This document shows positions 15,474 to 23,862 of a stretch of DNA of 24,209 nt, piece by piece. Within the stretch, counting starts at the first letter, position 1. Every line of letters begins with the position of its first letter. A program made the position numbers and the translations under genes. The DNA is from a virus. The stretch is from positions 1 to 24,209 of IMG/VR virus record IMGVR_UViG_3300047553_000193; one strand, given 5' to 3'. The notes beneath the pieces are model-generated. The model did no database searches and was not told the DNA's origin. It saw only the letters and a program-made list of their open reading frames with translations.

Positions 15474-16628
15474 TTAGACAAACCGATACACGCCCTGGAA
15501 CTTATGGTCATTTTTGCACCTTACCGCTAAGGCTAAAGCGTTCACACAGTCGTCATGGAATCCGCTCGGAGCGTTATATCTTACCCCTGTTGAAGTGAAC
15601 ACGTACTCAAAAACATTAAGCTCGTCAGTTATTTTGCCCTCAGGGAAACCAATCTCCTGCTTATGTATAGCGGACGCGAGTAGCTCCATGATTTGCTGTT
15701 TTGATGTTGACGTGTACTTAAAGCCGTGCATCGCGCTGAATGATCTTTGCAAGTCCTCAGTAATGGCATCCCCTACGCCTGTGCTGTCAATCATTACAGG
15801 ACGTGAACGGTCAAGCGTAAGGATATGCTCACGCGTTGACTTCCAATCTTTTTGGAATCGGTCAAACTTGCACACGTGACCATGCATATCTAAGCCGATA
15901 ATGACTGTCCAGTCATGCGACTTCGCGAGGTCAATTCCGTAATAAAGTGGGGGTAAGCTTGACAAAGGTTTTACACAGGTTCGGATATGTTCACTCCCAA
16001 AAGGGTTTGAAGCGTTCTCCATAGCGTTCGCCATGTACTCCTGTTCAAATACCGCTGAGGGTAATTGATTCCGCGCCTCGTCGATTTCCGACTTATCTAT
16101 GTAGGGGTTATCGTAGGTCGTAAATTTAAAAGCTGACCATTCAGGCTCACCACCTTTTTGGAATAGCGAATAGAAATAATTTTTCCCCTTAGGCGTTGAA
16201 AGGAATAATGCGCGACCTTTATAGTCCGTCAGCGTTGGACGGATCGAGTTCAACCAGCCGTCCTCTAGGTTCGGAATGAATGAAGCCTCATCCACAACTA
16301 CTAAGTGAAATTTGCGACCGCGTAAGGAATCAAGCCGTTCCCCTGTAAAAAACATTACTGAGCCTTCGTTTGGGAAGGTAATAGTTAAGTCGCTTTTGTT
16401 ATGCTCAAACGGAATGACCTTTGTTAGCTGTTTAAAGAAGGTTTTAGCGAGTTGGTAGGTTGGGGTAATGTAAGCGACTGCGCTCCCTTTTATCGCCTCG
16501 AAAATGATCTCTAATTGCGCTAGTTCCGATTTTCCGAAACGCCGTCCACACATAACGACACGAAAGCGCGACTGATCGTCAAAGATAGCTTGTTGGTTTT
16601 CGTGAAGTTCGGGGATGTGTATCTGCAT
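15474..16628 (-). CDS. terL: Large terminase subunit
   Basis: This ATP-driven motor packages DNA into the prohead and cuts it. The ATPase domain shows Walker A (GRRFGKSE, residues 28-35), Walker B with the catalytic glutamate (HLVVVDEAS, 108-116), and the coupling motif (STPKGKN, 144-150). The RNase H-like nuclease domain has acidic metal ligands at YYGIDLAKSHD (Asp233), VMIDSTGVGD (Asp281) and FHDDCVNALA (Asp359/360). At 384 residues it is at the short end for TerL but has every motif. The ATG lies one base after the stop of a 25-residue peptide and is preceded by the small terminase gene. Confidence 0.95.
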   Translation of the reverse strand: MQIHIPELHENQQAIFDDQSRFRVVMCGRRFGKSELAQLEIIFEAIKGSAVAYITPTYQLAKTFFKQLTKVIPFEHNKSDLTITFPNEGSVMFFTGERLDSLRGRKFHLVVVDEASFIPNLEDGWLNSIRPTLTDYKGRALFLSTPKGKNYFYSLFQKGGEPEWSAFKFTTYDNPYIDKSEIDEARNQLPSAVFEQEYMANAMENASNPFGSEHIRTCVKPLSSLPPLYYGIDLAKSHDWTVIIGLDMHGHVCKFDRFQKDWKSTREHILTLDRSRPVMIDSTGVGDAITEDLQRSFSAMHGFKYTSTSKQQIMELLASAIHKQEIGFPEGKITDELNVFEYVFTSTGVRYNAPSGFHDDCVNALALAVRCKNDHKFQGVYRFV

Positions 16629-16629
16629 A

Positions 16630-16707
16630 TCAATCTTTCCAAAATTTATCTACCCAGCGCATAAGGGTAAATAGTACCCCTATCGTTATGAACGCGAGTA
16701 AAAACAT
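16630..16707 (-). CDS. Tiny membrane peptide (25 aa) between TerS and TerL
   Basis: The TerS stop overlaps an ATG (TAATG) that opens a 25-codon frame. Its stop is followed by one base and then the TerL ATG, so the frame exactly fills the gap. The peptide is MFLLAFITIGVLF, then TLMRWVDKFWKD: an uninterrupted 15-residue hydrophobic segment with a positively charged, aromatic C-terminal end, as in single-pass membrane peptides. The stop-start overlap at both ends is how other genes in this window are linked. It could be translated by coupling or be chance. No family is recognised. Confidence 0.5.
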   Translation of the reverse strand: MFLLAFITIGVLFTLMRWVDKFWKD

Positions 16708-17111
16708 TATAAGATCGTTTTGCCCTTAGTGATAACAAACTCTATTTTACCTGTGTTCTCTACGGTGCTGGTCTCTTTCGGTTTTCCGTAAACACGAGTT
16801 AACAAAGTGTCGAGTGAATAAAGCGAACCTTTTTCAAGGCTTTTCCTCATAGCTCCTGCGATTGTTTTCTCTAAGATCGTCGCCTTAGGGTTATCCCAAA
16901 CCGATTTTAATTCCTCTAAGTCCATAGCCATTAAAGCCTGAATCGTGTCATTAACCTCGCTAGCTTTGTATCCCTGCTCCTTTAATAAGCTGATATACTT
17001 ACGAGGTCGTCCGTTTTTGTTTATCCTTTCAGGGTGGCTATCGAATCCGTCCCCTTTTTTTAAGTTATCTAACTTGTTTGCCATCGGTTGTAAATCGGTT
17101 GTTTTTTGCAT
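16707..17111 (-). CDS. terS: Small terminase subunit-like protein
   Basis: The protein (134 aa from the ATG at 17111) lies just before TerL, and contains FDSHPERINKNGRPRKYISL, the Asn-Gly-Arg-Pro/basic phrase seen near the N terminus of many small terminases of this host group, then helices that would recognise DNA and oligomerise. A second ATG at 17084 (MANKLDNLKK) is equally good and gives 125 aa and a 20-nt instead of a 47-nt overlap with the HNH gene; I slightly favour it biologically. TerS selects the packaging site and regulates TerL. The C terminus (KIEFVITKGKTIL) is strand-like, a possible TerL-binding end. Position is the main evidence. Confidence 0.75.
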   Translation of the reverse strand: MQKTTDLQPMANKLDNLKKGDGFDSHPERINKNGRPRKYISLLKEQGYKASEVNDTIQALMAMDLEELKSVWDNPKATILEKTIAGAMRKSLEKGSLYSLDTLLTRVYGKPKETSTVENTGKIEFVITKGKTIL

Positions 17112-17364
17112 TACGCGAATTAATCTTTTCGTTGTGTATTTCCATCAGGAAATCTTTGTACTTTGTCCTGTCGCCGTATCTGTCATGACATAGCCTACAG
17201 ACTGCCATAAGGTTACTGATGTAGTCCTGTGTTTTAGAACCTCCCATGCCTCGCCGCTGAATGTGATGAATATCGACGGCTTTTGATCCGCAGACTTCAC
17301 ACGGTATAAAAGATTCAGTATCGTATCCGAAAAAATCAAAGTAGAGCGCTGTGTGTTTTTTCAT
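17065..17364 (-). CDS. HNH endonuclease next to the terminase
   Basis: The protein has the zinc-stabilised HNH core: CEVC (Cys22, Cys25), VDIHHIQRRG (His33/34), Asn51 in YISNLMAVC, and CRLCH (Cys56, Cys59, His60). The two Cys pairs bind a structural zinc and the His/Asn/His residues the catalytic metal. HNH proteins beside terminase genes are known to assist DNA packaging in several tailed phages. Alternatively it could be a homing nuclease. The gene overlaps both neighbours (TerS and the unknown protein upstream), so it is integrated in the operon, which favours the packaging role. Confidence 0.85.
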   Translation of the reverse strand: MKKHTALYFDFFGYDTESFIPCEVCGSKAVDIHHIQRRGMGGSKTQDYISNLMAVCRLCHDRYGDRTKYKDFLMEIHNEKINSRNAKNNRFTTDGKQVR

Positions 17365-17656
17365 TCTCGAAGTTTTTGTAAACCGTTCCCGATACGTTTA
17401 TCTTATTAGCCACAGGATAACCTTCAAAAATTATGCCGTCCTTATCTCCGACAAGTTTAACCTGCTTTGAGTTCGCCTCACGTACTGCAACAGGGAAAGG
17501 GAAAAGGCTGTTTTCAATCCTTACTTTGTCAATCATTCGAACCCATAAGCGCGAGCGTTCACGTGATCTACTGCCGTAAAGGTAAACGGAAGCCATTTGA
17601 ATCTCCTTAAATACAGCCATAAGCTGTTTCTTTTCTGTGTTGTAAAGTGCGATCAT
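17336..17656 (-). CDS. Small protein of unknown function
   Basis: The protein (106 aa) has a basic helical N-terminal half ([40 protein letters not shown]) and a beta-like C-terminal half ([20 protein letters not shown]). The first part is faintly reminiscent of NUMOD-type DNA-binding segments, which is weak and may be chance. It overlaps the methyltransferase stop by 4 nt (ATGA) and the HNH start by 29 nt. A DNA-binding role would fit its neighbours but is not shown. I do not recognise a family. Confidence 0.6.
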
Positions 17657-18765
17657 ATTTCTACTCCGTTCTTTTTTATTTTTAAATCAGGATCAAGTGC
17701 TTTCATTCTGTCGATAATTACCTGACAGTATTTAGGATCGAGTTCCATACCGTAGCACTTGCGTTTAAGTTGATGTGACGCTACCATTGTGACTCCGCTT
17801 CCTAAAAAATAATCAGAAATAAGTTTTGATTTTTCTCCAAACTTTTGAAAGCACCAAGATACAAGTTCTACTGGCTTCTGCGTTGGATGCACCCTATTTA
17901 CTTTTTCAGATGCTTTTGTAAATTGACGAACTACGCTCCTTGCATTGCACCATGCAAGTTCGCAGTCCGTTTGGTCACTACCTCCATTGTTCTTATCCCA
18001 AACTATCCAGCATTCAGAATCAGGTAAACAAGAAGAATAGTAATTTGCTCCCCACCATATTTGAACTGCGTCTGGGAACAAAGAAAATATCAGGTTAAAT
18101 GAATCTTTAGCTGCATTGGTATCAGAATCCCCTAAAATATCCTTGCCATATTTTTCTTTCAATACTCCACTTTTTGTAACAGCATTCATACCATAAGGAG
18201 GGTCTGTAAAAACCATGTCAGCCTTTTCTCCATTCATTAATTTCGCTACTGCGTCGCTGTCTGTTGAATCCCCACAAAGCAAACGATGCTCCCCTATTTC
18301 GAATAGGTCGCCGAGTACAATATCCGTCTTAATTTCGTCAGGCACTTCGAAGTTATCCTCCTCCGCCTCTAGTGTTTCAGGTTCAAAGTTCGGAATATCC
18401 AACCCCCACTCCGTCAACTGCTCAGCGTCCCAATTATTTGCTAGATCGTCCCAATCCCACTCACCATATCCTACGTTATCTTTTATAATAAATTCGCGCT
18501 TTTGTTCTTCAGTCCAATCGTCTGCCATCGTAACCCAAGTCTCAGGGATTTCTGAGTAGCTTAATTCCTTTAAAGCCTTTAATCTCATGTTGCCTCCGAG
18601 CGGATAAATTTTCCCGTCTGTGTCAGTTACGCAAACAATCGGACGCTTGTCTAACATATCGGGAAACGCCTCGATTGATTTGACGAGCTTTTTAAATTTA
18701 TCGTCCTTAATTAACCGAGGGTTATTCGGGTTCGCTTTGATTTTTGAAAGTTTTATTTTTCCCAT
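17653..18765 (-). CDS. ParB-like domain fused to a DNA methyltransferase
   Basis: Residues 1-100 are a ParB/Srx-type domain ([20 protein letters not shown]; box II-like [11 protein letters not shown], residues 55-65). Residues 150-370 are an amino-DNA methyltransferase with [13 protein letters not shown] (DPPY 188-191, motif IV), HPTQKP (293-298) and [11 protein letters not shown] (motif I-like AdoMet site) followed by CYGMELDP. Motif IV precedes motif I, a beta-class order for adenine or N4-cytosine enzymes. Phages with this fusion probably methylate their DNA to evade restriction or mark packaging sites. No partner nuclease of a restriction system is nearby. The overlap with the MazG-like gene is 13 nt. 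Target site unknown. Confidence 0.9.
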
Positions 18766-18977
18766 AGATCGTTTGTTGTTTCATGATACCTACCGAATTT
18801 AATCGGCTGCTGGCTTTTTAATTTCTCAATGTACAAAACCGCGTCCATAAGTTCCTCCTGCAAATGGTTTAAATAGTCGTCCTTATCGTTTTCGTATAAG
18901 GTCGTTCCGTATTTCTTTATTCCTATTTCTGAACGCTGGTTAAATTTATCAATTACCTGTTGAACTATTTTATCCAT
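18753..18977 (-). CDS. MazG-like NTP pyrophosphohydrolase-like small protein
   Basis: The 74-residue protein is nearly all helical and contains [20 protein letters not shown], then [20 protein letters not shown]. The EExxD-type metal-binding helix and the 'GIKKYGTTL' loop are typical of phage MazG-like proteins, which hydrolyse nucleotide triphosphates. It has only one complete acidic helix, so it may be a reduced member or bind only. It overlaps the methyltransferase by 13 nt and the upstream glycosyltransferase by 8 nt. A role in nucleotide pools or stress signalling (ppGpp) would be inference. Confidence 0.6.
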
Positions 18978-19602
18978 TTTTTTTATTTACGTAGTAATTG
19001 CCTGTCCTGTCGTACTCAGAAATAATATCGTTGTAAATTGAATGCACGCGGATCAGGCTTTCATCTTTCATTTTTCTGTATTCCGTTCCATTGCCTACGT
19101 CATGACCGATATGCTCAGCTTCTAAAATTGGAATATAGTAATTTATAAAACCAGCCTTTTCTGCTCGATAACAAAAATCTGAGTCCTGCATTCCGTATGG
19201 ATCATGATCCTCGTTATAGTATCCTATTGTGTCAATTAGCTTTCTCGACATGATACAATTTCCAAAGGTTGCAGGCGTTTGATGTATAGGCATTCCATTT
19301 AAAAATGAAATAGGAGGCAAATCTAAAACAGTATGAAAACCAACTACGCCGCTGTTTTCAATTTTCTTTAAATAGCTAACCATAACAGCGAGCCAGTCCT
19401 CAGGCATTCGTATGTCGTTGGCGCAGGTAACAACTGCATCGTATTGTTTAGTTTTCTCTAGCCCTTCATTTAAAGCCGCTGCAACGCCAAAGCGATCTAT
19501 TGTGAATAAGTCAAAAGGATAGCCAGCCTTACCTACTGATTCAAGTGCTTTTTTTGTGTGTTCGTGCCTTGAATAGTCTAAAAAAATTATTGCTACTTTC
19601 AT
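18970..19602 (-). CDS. Glycosyltransferase family 2-like (GT-A)
   Basis: The N terminus MKVAIIFLDYSRHEHTKKAL is the beginning of a GT-A nucleotide-binding fold, followed by GVAAALNEGLEKTKQYDAVV. The expected DxD motif is replaced by TCANDIRMP, with Asn-Asp. A downstream YGMQDSDFCYRAEKAG phrase supplies the acidic catalytic base seen in family 2 enzymes. It would transfer a sugar from a nucleotide donor. The 210-residue length is short but complete for GT2 enzymes of phages. It starts 4 nt inside the LpxA-like gene (ATGA), so the cassette is co-translated. The acceptor could be host surface glycan, phage DNA or a virion protein. Confidence 0.8.
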   Translation of the reverse strand: MKVAIIFLDYSRHEHTKKALESVGKAGYPFDLFTIDRFGVAAALNEGLEKTKQYDAVVTCANDIRMPEDWLAVMVSYLKKIENSGVVGFHTVLDLPPISFLNGMPIHQTPATFGNCIMSRKLIDTIGYYNEDHDPYGMQDSDFCYRAEKAGFINYYIPILEAEHIGHDVGNGTEYRKMKDESLIRVHSIYNDIISEYDRTGNYYVNKKNG

Positions 19603-20075
19603 TTATTTTTACTTAGGTATCGGGCAGGATTCCCAACGTATTTAGAGTTCTCTTTTGTTTCAAGTCCCTTTGTAACTACTGCGCCCATTCCAATCATGCA
19701 GCCTTGCGCGATTTGTTGCCTTTGATGTATAACAGCGTTCAAACCGATATTAGTTCCGTTCCCAATAATTGCATGACCTCCGATTTTAGCACCGCAGGAA
19801 ATAGTAACGTCGTCCTGAATTACACAATCATGACCGACATGGCTGTGCTTCATTAAATAACAATTTTTACCGATTTCAGTTTTCCTAACTGCTCCGCTGT
19901 CAACGGTAACATGACCAGTCAGGCGGCTGCCTGATTTGATCAAAACTCCCTTATCGATTCCTTCCATGCCTTTCCACTCAGCAGGAAAACCGATAATGCA
20001 AAAAGGACCGATGTAAACGTCGTCCTCAATTGTAACGTGTTTTCCAATCTGTGCTGTTGGGTGTATGTATTGCAT
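19599..20075 (-). CDS. LpxA-like left-handed beta-helix acyltransferase
   Basis: Hexapeptide repeats run the whole length (HPTAQIGKHVTIEDDVYIGP; EIGKNC; VIQDDVTISCGAKIGGHAII). KHSHVGHDC at residues 76-84 carries the pair of histidines (His78, His82) that align with the catalytic histidine region of LpxA, and IGFPAEWKG matches the LpxA loop before the active site. At 158 residues it lacks the C-terminal helical domain of full LpxA (about 260 aa), and ends GNPARYL like sugar O- or N-acyltransferases. It would acylate a sugar-containing acceptor. It lies between two glycosyltransferases, so it probably decorates the same glycan. Confidence 0.8.
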   Translation of the reverse strand: MQYIHPTAQIGKHVTIEDDVYIGPFCIIGFPAEWKGMEGIDKGVLIKSGSRLTGHVTVDSGAVRKTEIGKNCYLMKHSHVGHDCVIQDDVTISCGAKIGGHAIIGNGTNIGLNAVIHQRQQIAQGCMIGMGAVVTKGLETKENSKYVGNPARYLSKNK

Positions 20076-20166
20076 TGTTTAAAAGTTTACGGAGTTCACG
20101 CCCTAAATCCTGGTCGTTAGGATATTTCTTAATCAGTTCAATAATTTTATCAAATAATAGATTCAT
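20026..20166 (-). CDS. Small helical protein (46 aa) in the glycan cassette
   Basis: An ATG at 20166 opens 46 codons, 17 nt before the end of the 92-residue CxxC gene, and the frame runs 50 nt into the LpxA-like gene. The product MNLLFDKIIELIKKYPNDQD then LGRELRKLLN is amphipathic and helical, a pattern I recall from small Bacteroidota phage proteins near glycosyltransferases. It fills the 74-nt gap between 20076 and 20150. Function is unknown, and its 3' part overlaps another gene in a different frame. Confidence 0.45.
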   Translation of the reverse strand: MNLLFDKIIELIKKYPNDQDLGRELRKLLNNAIHTPNSTDWKTRYN

Positions 20167-20428
20167 AGTGTCGGTAAGCCATTGATAAAAATTCAGCTAC
20201 ACAGGCAGGGCAGCGTTTATTGTACGTGTGGTGTGGAAAGTCGATTTGATACACACTCAAAAGCTCGTCCTGTGCTTCGTGTGTAAAGTTAATGACTTCG
20301 CCTGATATAACGAAAAGCTCGTAAATATGTTTATGCCTTAAGTAAATCGGCAAACGCTTGTCTTCGGTTTTTGTTAATGTCTCGGAGGCTGTACTTTTTG
20401 ACCGCCCACTCGTGGAGTTTTTCGCCAT
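20150..20428 (-). CDS. Small CxxC protein in the glycan cassette
   Basis: The frame gives 92 residues from the ATG at 20428, but its first about 30 residues lie inside the upstream glycosyltransferase in another frame and look like a shadow. A TTG at 20353 would give 67 residues starting at LPIYLRHKHIYELF, which includes the plausible core. The core contains HHTYNKRCPACVAEFLSMAY, with a CxxC pair and nearby histidines that could bind zinc. It is followed by the 46-residue protein. The function is unknown. A helper or adaptor for the glycosyltransferases is possible only by position. Confidence 0.5.
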   Translation of the reverse strand: MAKNSTSGRSKSTASETLTKTEDKRLPIYLRHKHIYELFVISGEVINFTHEAQDELLSVYQIDFPHHTYNKRCPACVAEFLSMAYRHYESII

Positions 20429-21356
20429 GATCTAAAATTGCGTTTTTATTGTTTATGTAAAAATTCATGTGCCGATACCAATCGTCCTGAGTTTTAACCC
20501 AAAGTACAGGCGCGTCCGCGTCGTCTGAATAGGGAGGCACTCCCTGACAAATTACAGGAACTTTTTTTGAAGCTGCCTCTAAAATTTTTAGGTTTGATTT
20601 GTACGCGCTCCAATCATTTGCTACCAAAGGAATGAGCATAACGTCCGCGCTGTCGTACATTTTCAGGTACTCAGTAACTGGAAGGGTTCTAAGTATTTCG
20701 TGCTTAAGTGATCTGTTCGCCGTCATGAAGTCCGTCATAGTATCCCAAATATGTTTTGAAATACTATTGCTTTCGTCATAACCTCCGATAACCATTTGAA
20801 CGTCGTAAAAGTGACCTTTGAGCCTGCGAACAGGATTTTTTAATATCCTTAAATCCTCAACGTGAGTACATCCACCTGCCCAAAAAAAGCGCACCCTGTC
20901 CAATTCTGTTTTGTTTACCTGAAATTGATCTTCTCCAAAGGGCAAAGCGTTAGGGAAAATATGAACGTTGTTATTGAACTTCCTGACCTTATTCGCAAGC
21001 CGTTCGTGAGTAACGGTAACCATGTCAGCGTCGTAAAGGTTTTTCTCAATTATCGGAGCGTGATGTTTATAGTCCCAATAGTTAATATGGTTTGTAGGTA
21101 GATTCCAGTCGTCGTCGATATCCATTACTATTTTGCAACCGAATCCCTGCCTAATTAATCCGATCTCATTCGAATAAGGGTTAACCCTATTATAAAGGAA
21201 AATGTCAAAGCTATCTCCGATTTGCTCACGCATTAAGGCATTGCTTACCATACCTTCCACGTTATCCATAAAACCCAAAGGAAGCGCGATCCTGTGATAA
21301 GTTACGCCTGAGTCCTTTTGACCAAAGCCGAAAATTTTTATTTTCTTGTCATCCAT
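20331..21356 (-). CDS. Glycosyltransferase, GT-B fold (GT1/GT4-like)
   Basis: The 341-residue protein has a Rossmann-like N-terminal half (MDDKKIKIFGFGQKDSGVTY, KIVMDIDDDWNLP, DADMVTVTHERLANKVRKFN) and a C-terminal donor-binding half (VRFFWAGGCTHVEDL, SADVMLIPLVANDWSAYKSN). The latter includes LKILEAASKKVPVI, the Glu-containing donor motif of GT4-type enzymes. It would move a sugar from a nucleotide donor. It opens the cassette, and its start overlaps the 82-residue membrane gene by 19 nt. Cytoplasmic action is expected because there is no signal or membrane segment. The acceptor is unknown. Confidence 0.85.
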   Translation of the reverse strand: MDDKKIKIFGFGQKDSGVTYHRIALPLGFMDNVEGMVSNALMREQIGDSFDIFLYNRVNPYSNEIGLIRQGFGCKIVMDIDDDWNLPTNHINYWDYKHHAPIIEKNLYDADMVTVTHERLANKVRKFNNNVHIFPNALPFGEDQFQVNKTELDRVRFFWAGGCTHVEDLRILKNPVRRLKGHFYDVQMVIGGYDESNSISKHIWDTMTDFMTANRSLKHEILRTLPVTEYLKMYDSADVMLIPLVANDWSAYKSNLKILEAASKKVPVICQGVPPYSDDADAPVLWVKTQDDWYRHMNFYINNKNAILDHGEKLHEWAVKKYSLRDINKNRRQAFADLLKA

Positions 21357-21586
21357 GCGATTACGTTTGAAGTGATCCCTGCGCCAAAAGTTACAGCAAC
21401 AAAGTGAGCGACCTCAGGGAAAAAATATAAAGCCGCTGCAACCCAAACCGACAAGCAGATAAAACAATCTAAAGGCTTAAGGCGTTTCCCTTTAGGAAAT
21501 TTTAGCTTTGCTTTTATCCAGTTCGGGATTCCTGCGATCTCAATGAAGTAAAACGAAAAAAATACCGCTGCAATTAGAATAAGCAT
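21338..21586 (-). CDS. Small two-pass membrane protein with CxxC
   Basis: The 82-residue protein has two strongly hydrophobic segments (LILIAAVFFSFYFI, residues 2-17, and LSVWVAAALYFF plus AHFVAVTFGAGI, about 45-72) separated by a basic loop (KAKLKFPKGKRLKPLDC). DCFICLSVW (Cys41, Cys44) at the loop-membrane junction is a motif I recall in small membrane proteins of Bacteroidota phages. It overlaps the glycosyltransferase start by 19 nt. The role is unknown. A holin is possible by topology alone but the basic CxxC loop and location in the glycan cassette make a membrane anchor for sugar transfer equally likely. Confidence 0.65.
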   Translation of the reverse strand: MLILIAAVFFSFYFIEIAGIPNWIKAKLKFPKGKRLKPLDCFICLSVWVAAALYFFPEVAHFVAVTFGAGITSNVIAWMTRK

Positions 21587-21693
21587 GATACTAATTTTAT
21601 AAGGGTAAAAATTGAAAATAAAAGAATCGAGGCTGTTATGAAATAGTCCACGAGCATCGATCCAATACTACCGATTAGTTTTATTGATTTCAT
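21574..21693 (-). CDS. Tiny membrane protein (39 aa)
   Basis: An ATG at 21693 (26 nt inside the end of the sigma-like gene) gives 39 residues: MKSIKLIGSIGSMLVDYFIT then ASILLFSIFTLIKLVSCLF. It has a charged N terminus and a long hydrophobic helix, and its stop overlaps the next gene's start by 13 nt. A longer version from 21792 is open, but its first 33 residues only shadow the upstream gene. Because it fills the gap between 21587 and 21667 it is probably real. Unknown function; it could pair with the following two-pass protein. Confidence 0.5.
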   Translation of the reverse strand: MKSIKLIGSIGSMLVDYFITASILLFSIFTLIKLVSCLF

Positions 21694-22186
21694 TTTTGAG
21701 CTGTTTTTTAGTTTCTTTGACCACGTTAAAAACGTGCTTTTGAGGTATGCCAAAAAATTCCGCAACCTTAACACAGTTTCGAAGTTCGACATATTTTTGG
21801 AAAATTATTGATTCATGTGCATCCTTTGCGCTGGATAGCAGTTTTTTATCAAGTACCCTCTGAGCTGTGTCCGCGCTCCCTAGATCGTTTTTTATCATTG
21901 TCAGCCTCAGATATTCGCGAGCCTTATCGATTGCGCTTTTTTTATACTTGTAATAAAAAGGCGAAGTTGAGGAGTAGGCTAAGTTGTAAATAATACGAAG
22001 GGCAAAGCCTGTAAAGTTTTCGCGTGTCTTGATCCTGATTAAGTCCTCGCAGTTATATTCTAAAAGAATCAAAGCAAACTCCTGTTTAAGATCAGCTTGC
22101 AGGTCAGTAGGGTTGATCTTACTAATGACCTCGTTTATTTTCGGATCATTGTAAGCGTGTTCCACTATTTCCCTACATTCATTCAC
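21668..22186 (-). CDS. Sigma-factor-like / helix-turn-helix phage protein
   Basis: The 172-residue helical protein has an N-terminal part (DLQADLKQEFALILLE, residues 28-43, and NFTGFALRIIYNLAYS, residues 57-72) that resembles the region 2 fold of sigma-70 family factors. The C-terminal helix-turn-helix (VKVAEFFGIPQKHVFNVVKE, residues 139-158) resembles region 4. Phage proteins with this arrangement act as small transcription regulators or sigma-like factors. There is no clear region 1 or 3, so the name is tentative. The ATG is 8 nt inside the nuclease gene. It could control late gene expression downstream. Confidence 0.55.
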   Translation of the reverse strand: MNECREIVEHAYNDPKINEVISKINPTDLQADLKQEFALILLEYNCEDLIRIKTRENFTGFALRIIYNLAYSSTSPFYYKYKKSAIDKAREYLRLTMIKNDLGSADTAQRVLDKKLLSSAKDAHESIIFQKYVELRNCVKVAEFFGIPQKHVFNVVKETKKQLKNEINKTNR

Positions 22187-23139: not shown

Positions 23140-23862
23140 TTAATTAGTACAAGCGCAGTCAAACGCAGGTTTAATTTCGTTTAGATCGTAATTTTTAAAT
23201 AGATTATTTTGAGCATAGTCGCGCATTTGCTTAATTGATATATCCGCAAAGTACTGGTATTTTTTTATCTGTTCCTCATCTTTGATCCACTCGTCAGCTA
23301 ATTCAGGATATGAAGCTAAGATATTCATTATTGCATTTTTCCCCTTCATAAAACATAAAGTACAATTTCCTAAGATCGAAGGAATTTCTAGCGTGTAACT
23401 TTTATTTTTCCAGTATTCGTTAACTATTTGTTTATCTATTTTTTTGTCATATAAAGGGAACGAGTCAACAACATTTTTCCACATTTGTTTTCTACGCTTA
23501 ACCCTTAAAGGTTCATCGTATCTAAAGCCTACCAAATTCTCGTATTTTGAAATACCTAAACTCCTAAGGTATCTCCTGCAAGTTTTTATTTTTAGCTCAA
23601 TGGTACAAAATCTTTTGAAGTTGTTAGGAATTGCATGTTTCTTTTTTAGCAGTTCTCTAAAGCCTCCTTCATATTGCAAGCGAATGACTGGGATATTTTC
23701 GTTAGCTTCAAAATCATTTATAAACTTATATGTTTTCGGGTGTTCACGTCCTGTATCGCAAAAAATTACAAGATCTCCCTGCCTATATTCAAGAATAGTC
23801 ATGTATGCAGAAGTTTTTCCTCCGCTAAAATTTATTATCCTTTGCATAAAATTTTTTAACAA
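23140..23862 (-). CDS. PAPS-reductase-like PP-loop protein with Cys motifs
   Basis: The 240-residue protein starts with a PP-loop (NFSGGKTSAYM, residues 11-21) followed by VIFCDTGREHPKTYKF, the pattern of the phosphoadenosine phosphosulfate reductase/adenine nucleotide alpha hydrolase family. It also has FKRFCTIELKIK, CTLC (Cys167, Cys170) and CAC near the C terminus (Cys236, Cys238), a set of cysteines that could hold a metal or Fe-S cluster. Family members reduce sulfur or handle thiolation chemistry; phage versions are usually of unknown role. ATG choices at 23862 and at 23847 (MQRIINFSGG) are both possible; the second fits the family better. No DNA phosphorothioation partner (Dnd-type) is visible. 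Confidence 0.75.
   Translation of the reverse strand: MLKNFMQRIINFSGGKTSAYMTILEYRQGDLVIFCDTGREHPKTYKFINDFEANENIPVIRLQYEGGFRELLKKKHAIPNNFKRFCTIELKIKTCRRYLRSLGISKYENLVGFRYDEPLRVKRRKQMWKNVVDSFPLYDKKIDKQIVNEYWKNKSYTLEIPSILGNCTLCFMKGKNAIMNILASYPELADEWIKDEEQIKKYQYFADISIKQMRDYAQNNLFKNYDLNEIKPAFDCACTN

Follow-up and report, generated by a model that had tools for sequence, protein, structure and literature searches.

Gene content of the locus

The window analyzed here is the complete 24,209-base stretch of IMG/VR record IMGVR_UViG_3300047553_000193, from an uncultured phage in which every assigned gene lies on the minus strand; genes for terminase, portal, and head protease are present along with further structural genes. 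We focus on a block of genes upstream of the terminase that encodes two glycosyltransferases (GTs), GT-A and GT-B, a left-handed beta-helix (LbH) acyltransferase, and several small proteins, and that an earlier note had described as a single glycan-remodeling cassette at 18970 to 21693. The named genes are indeed present, overlapping, and on the minus strand, with open frames throughout and family matches for GT-A, LbH, and GT-B; these three enzyme classes fit the description of a locus that builds and acylates a sugar. The genes are listed below in order of transcription, with one doubtful 72-amino-acid (aa) frame inserted by position.

21668..22186, minus strand: sigma-like protein, 172 aa; opens the conserved block; weak NCBIfam sigma matches
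21574..21792, minus strand: 72-aa frame, doubtful gene; one hydrophobic helix; near-identical strains only
21338..21586, minus strand: two-helix membrane protein, DUF1360-like; CxxC...W motif; PF07098, 19.8 bits
20331..21356, minus strand: GT-B glycosyltransferase, GT4-like fold, core enzyme; phrog_7162, E = 5e-62
20150..20428, minus strand: small helical CxxC protein, GT-B core partner or regulator; 35/35 loci
20026..20166, minus strand: 46-aa open reading frame (ORF), doubtful; separate frame in near-identical strains only
19599..20075, minus strand: LbH acyltransferase, putatively FdtC/QdtC-like, outer module; Hexapep, E = 2e-20
18970..19602, minus strand: GT-A glycosyltransferase, GT2-type, outer module; Pfam Glycos_transf_2, E = 2.4e-6
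18753..18977, minus strand: 74-aa protein, phage family phrog_32278, outside the conserved block; present in few relatives
17653..18765, minus strand: ParB-N plus N6/N4 DNA methyltransferase, swappable slot, outside the glycan cassette; N6_N4_Mtase, E = 1e-17
16707..17111, minus strand: terminase small subunit-like gene, downstream of the block; conserved position before TerL
15474..16628, minus strand: terminase large subunit, survey anchor; phrog_2, E = 1e-44

Overlaps occur between most neighboring genes of the block, and the unit reaches past 18970 to 21693 on both sides, taking in the sigma-like gene at one end and continuing into the genes for the methyltransferase and terminase at the other. 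The sigma-like protein matches SigBFG (E = 3e-4) below the NCBIfam cut-off, and its gene precedes the DUF1360-like one in almost every relative. The earlier note placed two membrane proteins ahead of the enzymes. One of these, the two-helix protein, was retained, with a PF07098 (DUF1360) match that falls below the cut-off of 21 bits; the other, the 72-aa frame, is doubtful, and an internal Met in it explains the end coordinate 21693 given previously. Similarly, the 46-residue protein corresponds to an open frame, but the frame is separate in near-identical strains only, and a similar sequence is fused in frame to the front of LbH in four other relatives. The membrane proteins of the block are all small (72 to 82 aa).

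A near-constant core and an optional outer module

The same gene order was found again in >100 independent contigs, with the block directly upstream of TerS/TerL, and this recurrence indicates that the arrangement is more than chance. Searches anchored on GT-A and on LbH gave 127 unique contigs, for which a profile was built per gene. The search for the same gene set in other phages, which the earlier note had suggested as a check, was thus positive: LbH adjoins GT-A in 72 of the 79 GT-A-anchored contigs, and the same GT-A is adjacent in 48 of the 56 LbH-anchored contigs. Two further LbH-anchored contigs (L107 and L144) end at LbH, and the remaining six (up to ~100 kb) carry other GT-like genes, read from sequence, beside it; in L108 (161 kb), LbH likewise lies amid GT-like genes. 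LbH therefore travels with GTs. Other, often larger phage contigs (L100, L101, L108, L130, L138, L142, and L145) hold the same LbH family between other GT-like genes, and since LbH stays GT-flanked in them, it appears to move among phage lineages along with GTs.

Because the GT-A- and LbH-anchored sets favor loci holding the GT-A/LbH pair, a terminase-anchored search was added, covering 35 loci in which the sequence extended far enough upstream. In all of these loci, GT-B and CxxC lie upstream of the terminase (35/35 each); the DUF1360-like and sigma-like genes do so in 33/35 each, compared with 17/35 for GT-A and 16/35 for LbH. Given these counts, the cluster consists of a near-constant core (sigma-like, DUF1360-like, CxxC, and GT-B) and an optional, exchangeable decoration module (LbH and GT-A). 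Linkage of the genes across relatives is real, but the terminase-anchored survey rules out one indivisible cassette.

Substitutes for the outer module occupy about half of the terminase-anchored loci, in the form of formyl- or methyltransferase modules or unclassified genes. In L012, the LbH position holds a sugar-type N-formyltransferase (Formyl_trans_N, E = 1e-17) whose best PDB match is a dTDP-4-amino-4,6-dideoxyglucose formyltransferase. LbH is absent from L020 and L041, in which GT-A is followed by a CmcI/rhamnosyl-type and an FkbM methyltransferase; relatives of these methyltransferases occur in L045 and L047. An additional methyltransferase lies between LbH and GT-A in L051, L121, L136, and L137. 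Other relatives have a quite different gene set with a weak methyltransferase match, or a methyltransferase alone, and L187 and L216 are among the variants with a methyltransferase only or nothing. Judged by enzyme family, every classified swap looks like a change to an outer sugar.

A PAPS-reductase-family protein is encoded in the window at 23140-23862, and in L084 (2624-3328) and L085 (1290-1994) a relative of it is placed within the cassette, flanked by CxxC and LbH.

LbH as a candidate N-acyltransferase of an amino-deoxy sugar

LpxA-like active-site residues without a C-terminal helix domain, the combination noted earlier for LbH, were borne out by an alignment of 24 diverse LbH proteins. 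H82-D83 and H117 are invariant, and H79 and H101 nearly so, matching the LpxA catalytic set, and the protein ends at residue 158, directly after the helix repeats. LpxA models score 90 bits on LbH against a cut-off of 231 bits. The whole of LbH is matched (E = 3e-44) by PDB 8e62, a 189-residue chain that its depositors named UDP-N-acetylglucosamine acyltransferase.

Cellular homologues were sought at a threshold of E = 1e-20 in 295 genomes from the class of a Chitinophagaceae metagenome-assembled genome (MAG). Besides the MAG itself, with its phage contig, four of the 295 genomes hold homologues, which are 41 to 44% identical. Of the four Bacteroidia loci, three have FdtA adjoining the LbH homologue, and these three are O-antigen-type with Wzx-like genes; two of them (L261 and L263) also contain the aminotransferase DegT, and the L264 stretch stops at FdtA. 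FdtA, FdtB, and FdtC make dTDP-Fuc3NAc (PMC5109656; see also PMC2905691), and the authors describing a Geobacillus flagellin glycosylation island noted a formyltransferase gene at the fdtC position (PMC5109656), the same pattern as the replacement of LbH in L012. Since its cellular homologues adjoin FdtA and DegT, and given the L012 swap, LbH fits a putative FdtC/QdtC-like enzyme, N-acylating an amino-deoxy sugar nucleotide, better than an LpxA-like O-acyltransferase. Acylation, as the earlier note proposed, is thus retained with a different predicted chemistry. LpxA-type lipid acylation was rejected on the basis of the absent C-terminal domain, the LpxA scores far under the cut-off, and the fdt-type context of the cellular homologues. 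There were no matches to DegT or epimerase families in 31 long relatives, so the host should supply the sugar-nucleotide precursor, and synthesis of the sugar nucleotide by the phage was rejected.

GT-B and its CxxC neighbor

The AlphaFold model of GT-B (pLDDT of 94) has a GT4-like fold, nearest to GlgM, PglA, and BshA, and its best Foldseek matches are GT4-type enzymes at TM scores of about 0.6 to 0.7. GT-B does not carry a complete EX7E motif: E260 is invariant in 27 aligned rows, and position 252 is never Glu. To our knowledge, this motif is not universal among GT4 enzymes. In the CxxC protein, two Cys residues are conserved in 35 aligned members and the rest of the sequence is variable. 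Library searches gave no family match for it, and its predicted model is small and mainly helical, with an uninformative best Z of 3.1 in a fold search. Identities of GT-B and CxxC correlate (Spearman, 0.87), compared with about 0.5 for either protein versus TerL; the two genes overlap, so part of this correlation reflects shared recombination history.

Host and lineage

Shine-Dalgarno-like motifs precede only 2 of the 30 start codons in the window, a scarcity as in Bacteroidota, and the contig of one relative was binned into the Chitinophagaceae MAG, a single contig that provides the only taxon hint. Together these observations indicate, rather than prove, a Bacteroidota host, and the host of this uncultured phage is probably a member of that phylum. 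A near relative, IMGVR 3300042865_000344 (GTs 98% and LbH 97% identical to those of the window), is 32.6 kb long and looks like a near full genome, as both of its ends fall inside the same gene block. A tblastn search of a phage collection with the GT-B, LbH, and GT-A proteins turned up no isolated phage carrying the cassette; GT-B matched 141 phage records, all <60% identical and the best ~32%. Lysogeny is not evident, since the 31 long relatives gave no tyrosine integrase match (other recombinases were not searched), and on these grounds a temperate serotype converter was rejected.

Proposed target of the glycan

We infer the acceptor, the sugar, the enzyme activities, and the timing of expression as follows. 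Our tentative interpretation, to which we give just short of an even chance, is that the locus directs the synthesis of a short, decorated glycan in the cytoplasm of the host and its attachment to phage structural proteins. The sigma-like protein would time the block with the late genes, and GT-B, with CxxC as a constant partner, would attach the initial sugar to an acceptor protein. From its genomic context, LbH may N-acylate an amino-deoxy-hexose nucleotide supplied by the host, for example a dTDP-3-amino-3,6-dideoxyhexose, at its amino group, and GT-A would then add the acylated sugar. Relatives would vary the outer sugar by replacing LbH with a formyltransferase or with methyltransferases, or by exchanging the outer module as a whole.

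Virion proteins fit best as acceptors because of two associations between GT genes and packaging or structural genes. The first is the position of the block just upstream of the terminase, with GT-B there in every terminase-anchored locus. The second is a Bacteroidia genome (G110) that keeps the sigma-like gene and GT-B ~3 kb from genes for an XkdF-like head protease, a capsid-like protein, and a tail-tube-like protein. This region of G110 (contig 5, 146776-153990; L265 to L267), for which no terminase match was found in the 38 kb examined, is either a degraded prophage or a head cassette that was domesticated, with the GT retained.

Several observations weigh against virion proteins as the target. 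Ser/Thr-rich C-terminal tails of the mycobacteriophage type were not seen on the capsid or tail-tube proteins of eight relatives, although glycosylation elsewhere is possible. An AT-hook-like RGRPKK tail ends 41 of 120 unique CxxC proteins (for example, in L007, 4588-4890), hinting at nucleic acid binding over glycan work; the CxxC protein of the window has a basic N-terminal stretch instead of this tail. Finally, a late operon with mixed functions could account for the closeness to the terminase. In such an operon, GT-B and the outer module would form the sugar system, with the sigma-like, DUF1360-like, and CxxC proteins as neighbors serving regulation or lysis. We regard this as quite possible, though not what we would expect on balance: the weak sigma matches, the AT-hook-like tails, and the retention of CxxC where GT-B is absent (L006, L097, and L099) all agree with it, whereas the overlap and codivergence of CxxC with GT-B do not. 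CxxC may accordingly be a partner of GT-B or an unrelated regulator. The mixed-operon explanation concerns gene membership and is compatible with a virion, host-surface, or DNA target.

The earlier note had named host surface, virion, and phage DNA as candidate targets; the first two remain, with the virion favored. Remodeling of the host surface would involve transfer of an acylated amino sugar onto a lipid-linked precursor of lipopolysaccharide or capsule in the cytoplasm, which would alter the receptor and block superinfection or readsorption to debris at lysis. The nearest cellular LbH homologues found lie in O-antigen loci, the core includes a small membrane protein, and exchangeable decorations would suit changing host surfaces. 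However, the block showed no flippase, polyprenyl-linked GT, membrane acyltransferase, or other Gtr/Oac-type gene, and in the two relatives checked, one of them near-identical to the window, neither the GTs nor LbH had a hydrophobic helix. With no evident lysogenic benefit either, and with the block fixed beside packaging genes, we consider a host-surface target rather unlikely.

The third candidate target, DNA, can be judged from the variable slot between GT-A and the terminase, which was surveyed in 108 loci. Its contents include N6/N4 methyltransferase (20 loci), Mom (12), C5 methyltransferase (2), TAGT (2), and TET (7 to 8, mostly with partner GT or FkbM genes, and not in the closest relatives of the window), along with a few sugar-type methyltransferases or GP88. 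The slot rotates separately from the glycan genes, which stay: in 60 of the 108 loci the slot matched no family searched for, and the glycan genes are still there. It is conceivable that GT-B and GT-A glycosylate modified phage bases and LbH decorates the sugar, guarding against restriction, and the adjacent slot (with TET, TAGT, Mom, or C5 methyltransferase in some relatives) and the AT-hook-like tails of part of the CxxC family favor this idea. Nevertheless, the families that could supply a hydroxymethylated base were absent or rare, with the thymidylate-synthase family (PF00303) in 0/31 long relatives and TET in so few loci, and the TET slot of L075 brings its own additional GT matching T4-type DNA glucosyltransferases. 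Together with the independent rotation of the slot, this makes DNA a very improbable target.

Within the slot, exchangeable effectors follow a ParB-N-type protein or are fused to it, as at 17653-18765 and in L005, L033, L054, L055, L064, L075, and L091; this arrangement may represent a fixed targeting domain whose catalytic partners can be swapped. An HNH-like gene at 17065-17364 adjoins the terminase small subunit, and similar genes occur in ~40 relatives at varied positions in the block, like a mobile passenger.

Taking the preferred virion target together with the rotating slot, it is possible, if somewhat doubtful, that a variable virion sugar coat is produced by a constant glycan-initiating unit (GT-B and CxxC) beside the packaging genes together with an outer module that can be exchanged (acyl, formyl, methyl, or alternative). 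Cassettes would then be exchanged in two parallel systems, perhaps one serving particles and the other genomes, within a widespread, uncultured, probably Bacteroidota phage lineage. The slot offers a natural comparison between protecting the genome and modifying the particle within a single lineage. A virion target also predicts that a structural protein carries an amino-deoxy sugar in N-acylated or N-formylated form, and exchange of the decoration might serve receptor choice or avoidance of recognition.

Comparison with known systems

Temperate-phage serotype conversion of O antigen relies on the membrane-embedded proteins GtrA, GtrB, and Oac. The locus resembles these systems in combining a phage-encoded GT with acyl transfer to sugars and differs in that its GTs and LbH appear soluble and that its relatives gave no tyrosine integrase match. 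With T4-type or TAGT phage DNA glycosylation it shares phage GTs, and in some relatives TET or TAGT lies next door; the long relatives nonetheless have no thymidylate-synthase-type enzyme, and TET and TAGT sit in a separate, swappable slot. A related GT-B (~32% identity; phrog_7162) is found in Escherichia phage phAPEC8 and its relatives among four tandem GT genes, in a different genome setting near primase and helicase; no experimentally established function for it was found. The Geobacillus flagellin island (PMC5109656) likewise combines an N-acyltransferase and GTs, with a formyltransferase in the acyltransferase place and methyltransferases as further decoration. That island, however, is a bacterial locus with its own sugar-nucleotide genes, unlike the phage relatives, in which such genes were searched for and not found.

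The closest parallel in proposed role is mycobacteriophage virion glycosylation, also a phage modification of capsid and tail proteins, for which glycans are placed at the C termini of capsid and tail-tube proteins in the account of Freeman 2023 given in PMC12619734 and PMC12691614. On that account glycans were observed in mycobacteriophages, whereas here the virion role is predicted, Ser/Thr-rich C-terminal tails were not seen, and an acyl/formyl/methyl module is added. No paper on this locus was found in the open-access literature searched, from which the full combination of genes is also absent. In suggesting that it may be an undescribed modification system, the earlier note was therefore right about the combination but not about phage-encoded glycosylation itself, which is already known; what is new is the N-acyl/N-formyl/methyl module and the constant GT-B/CxxC core beside packaging genes. 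If virion proteins are the target, particle glycosylation would extend from mycobacteriophages to a large environmental lineage.

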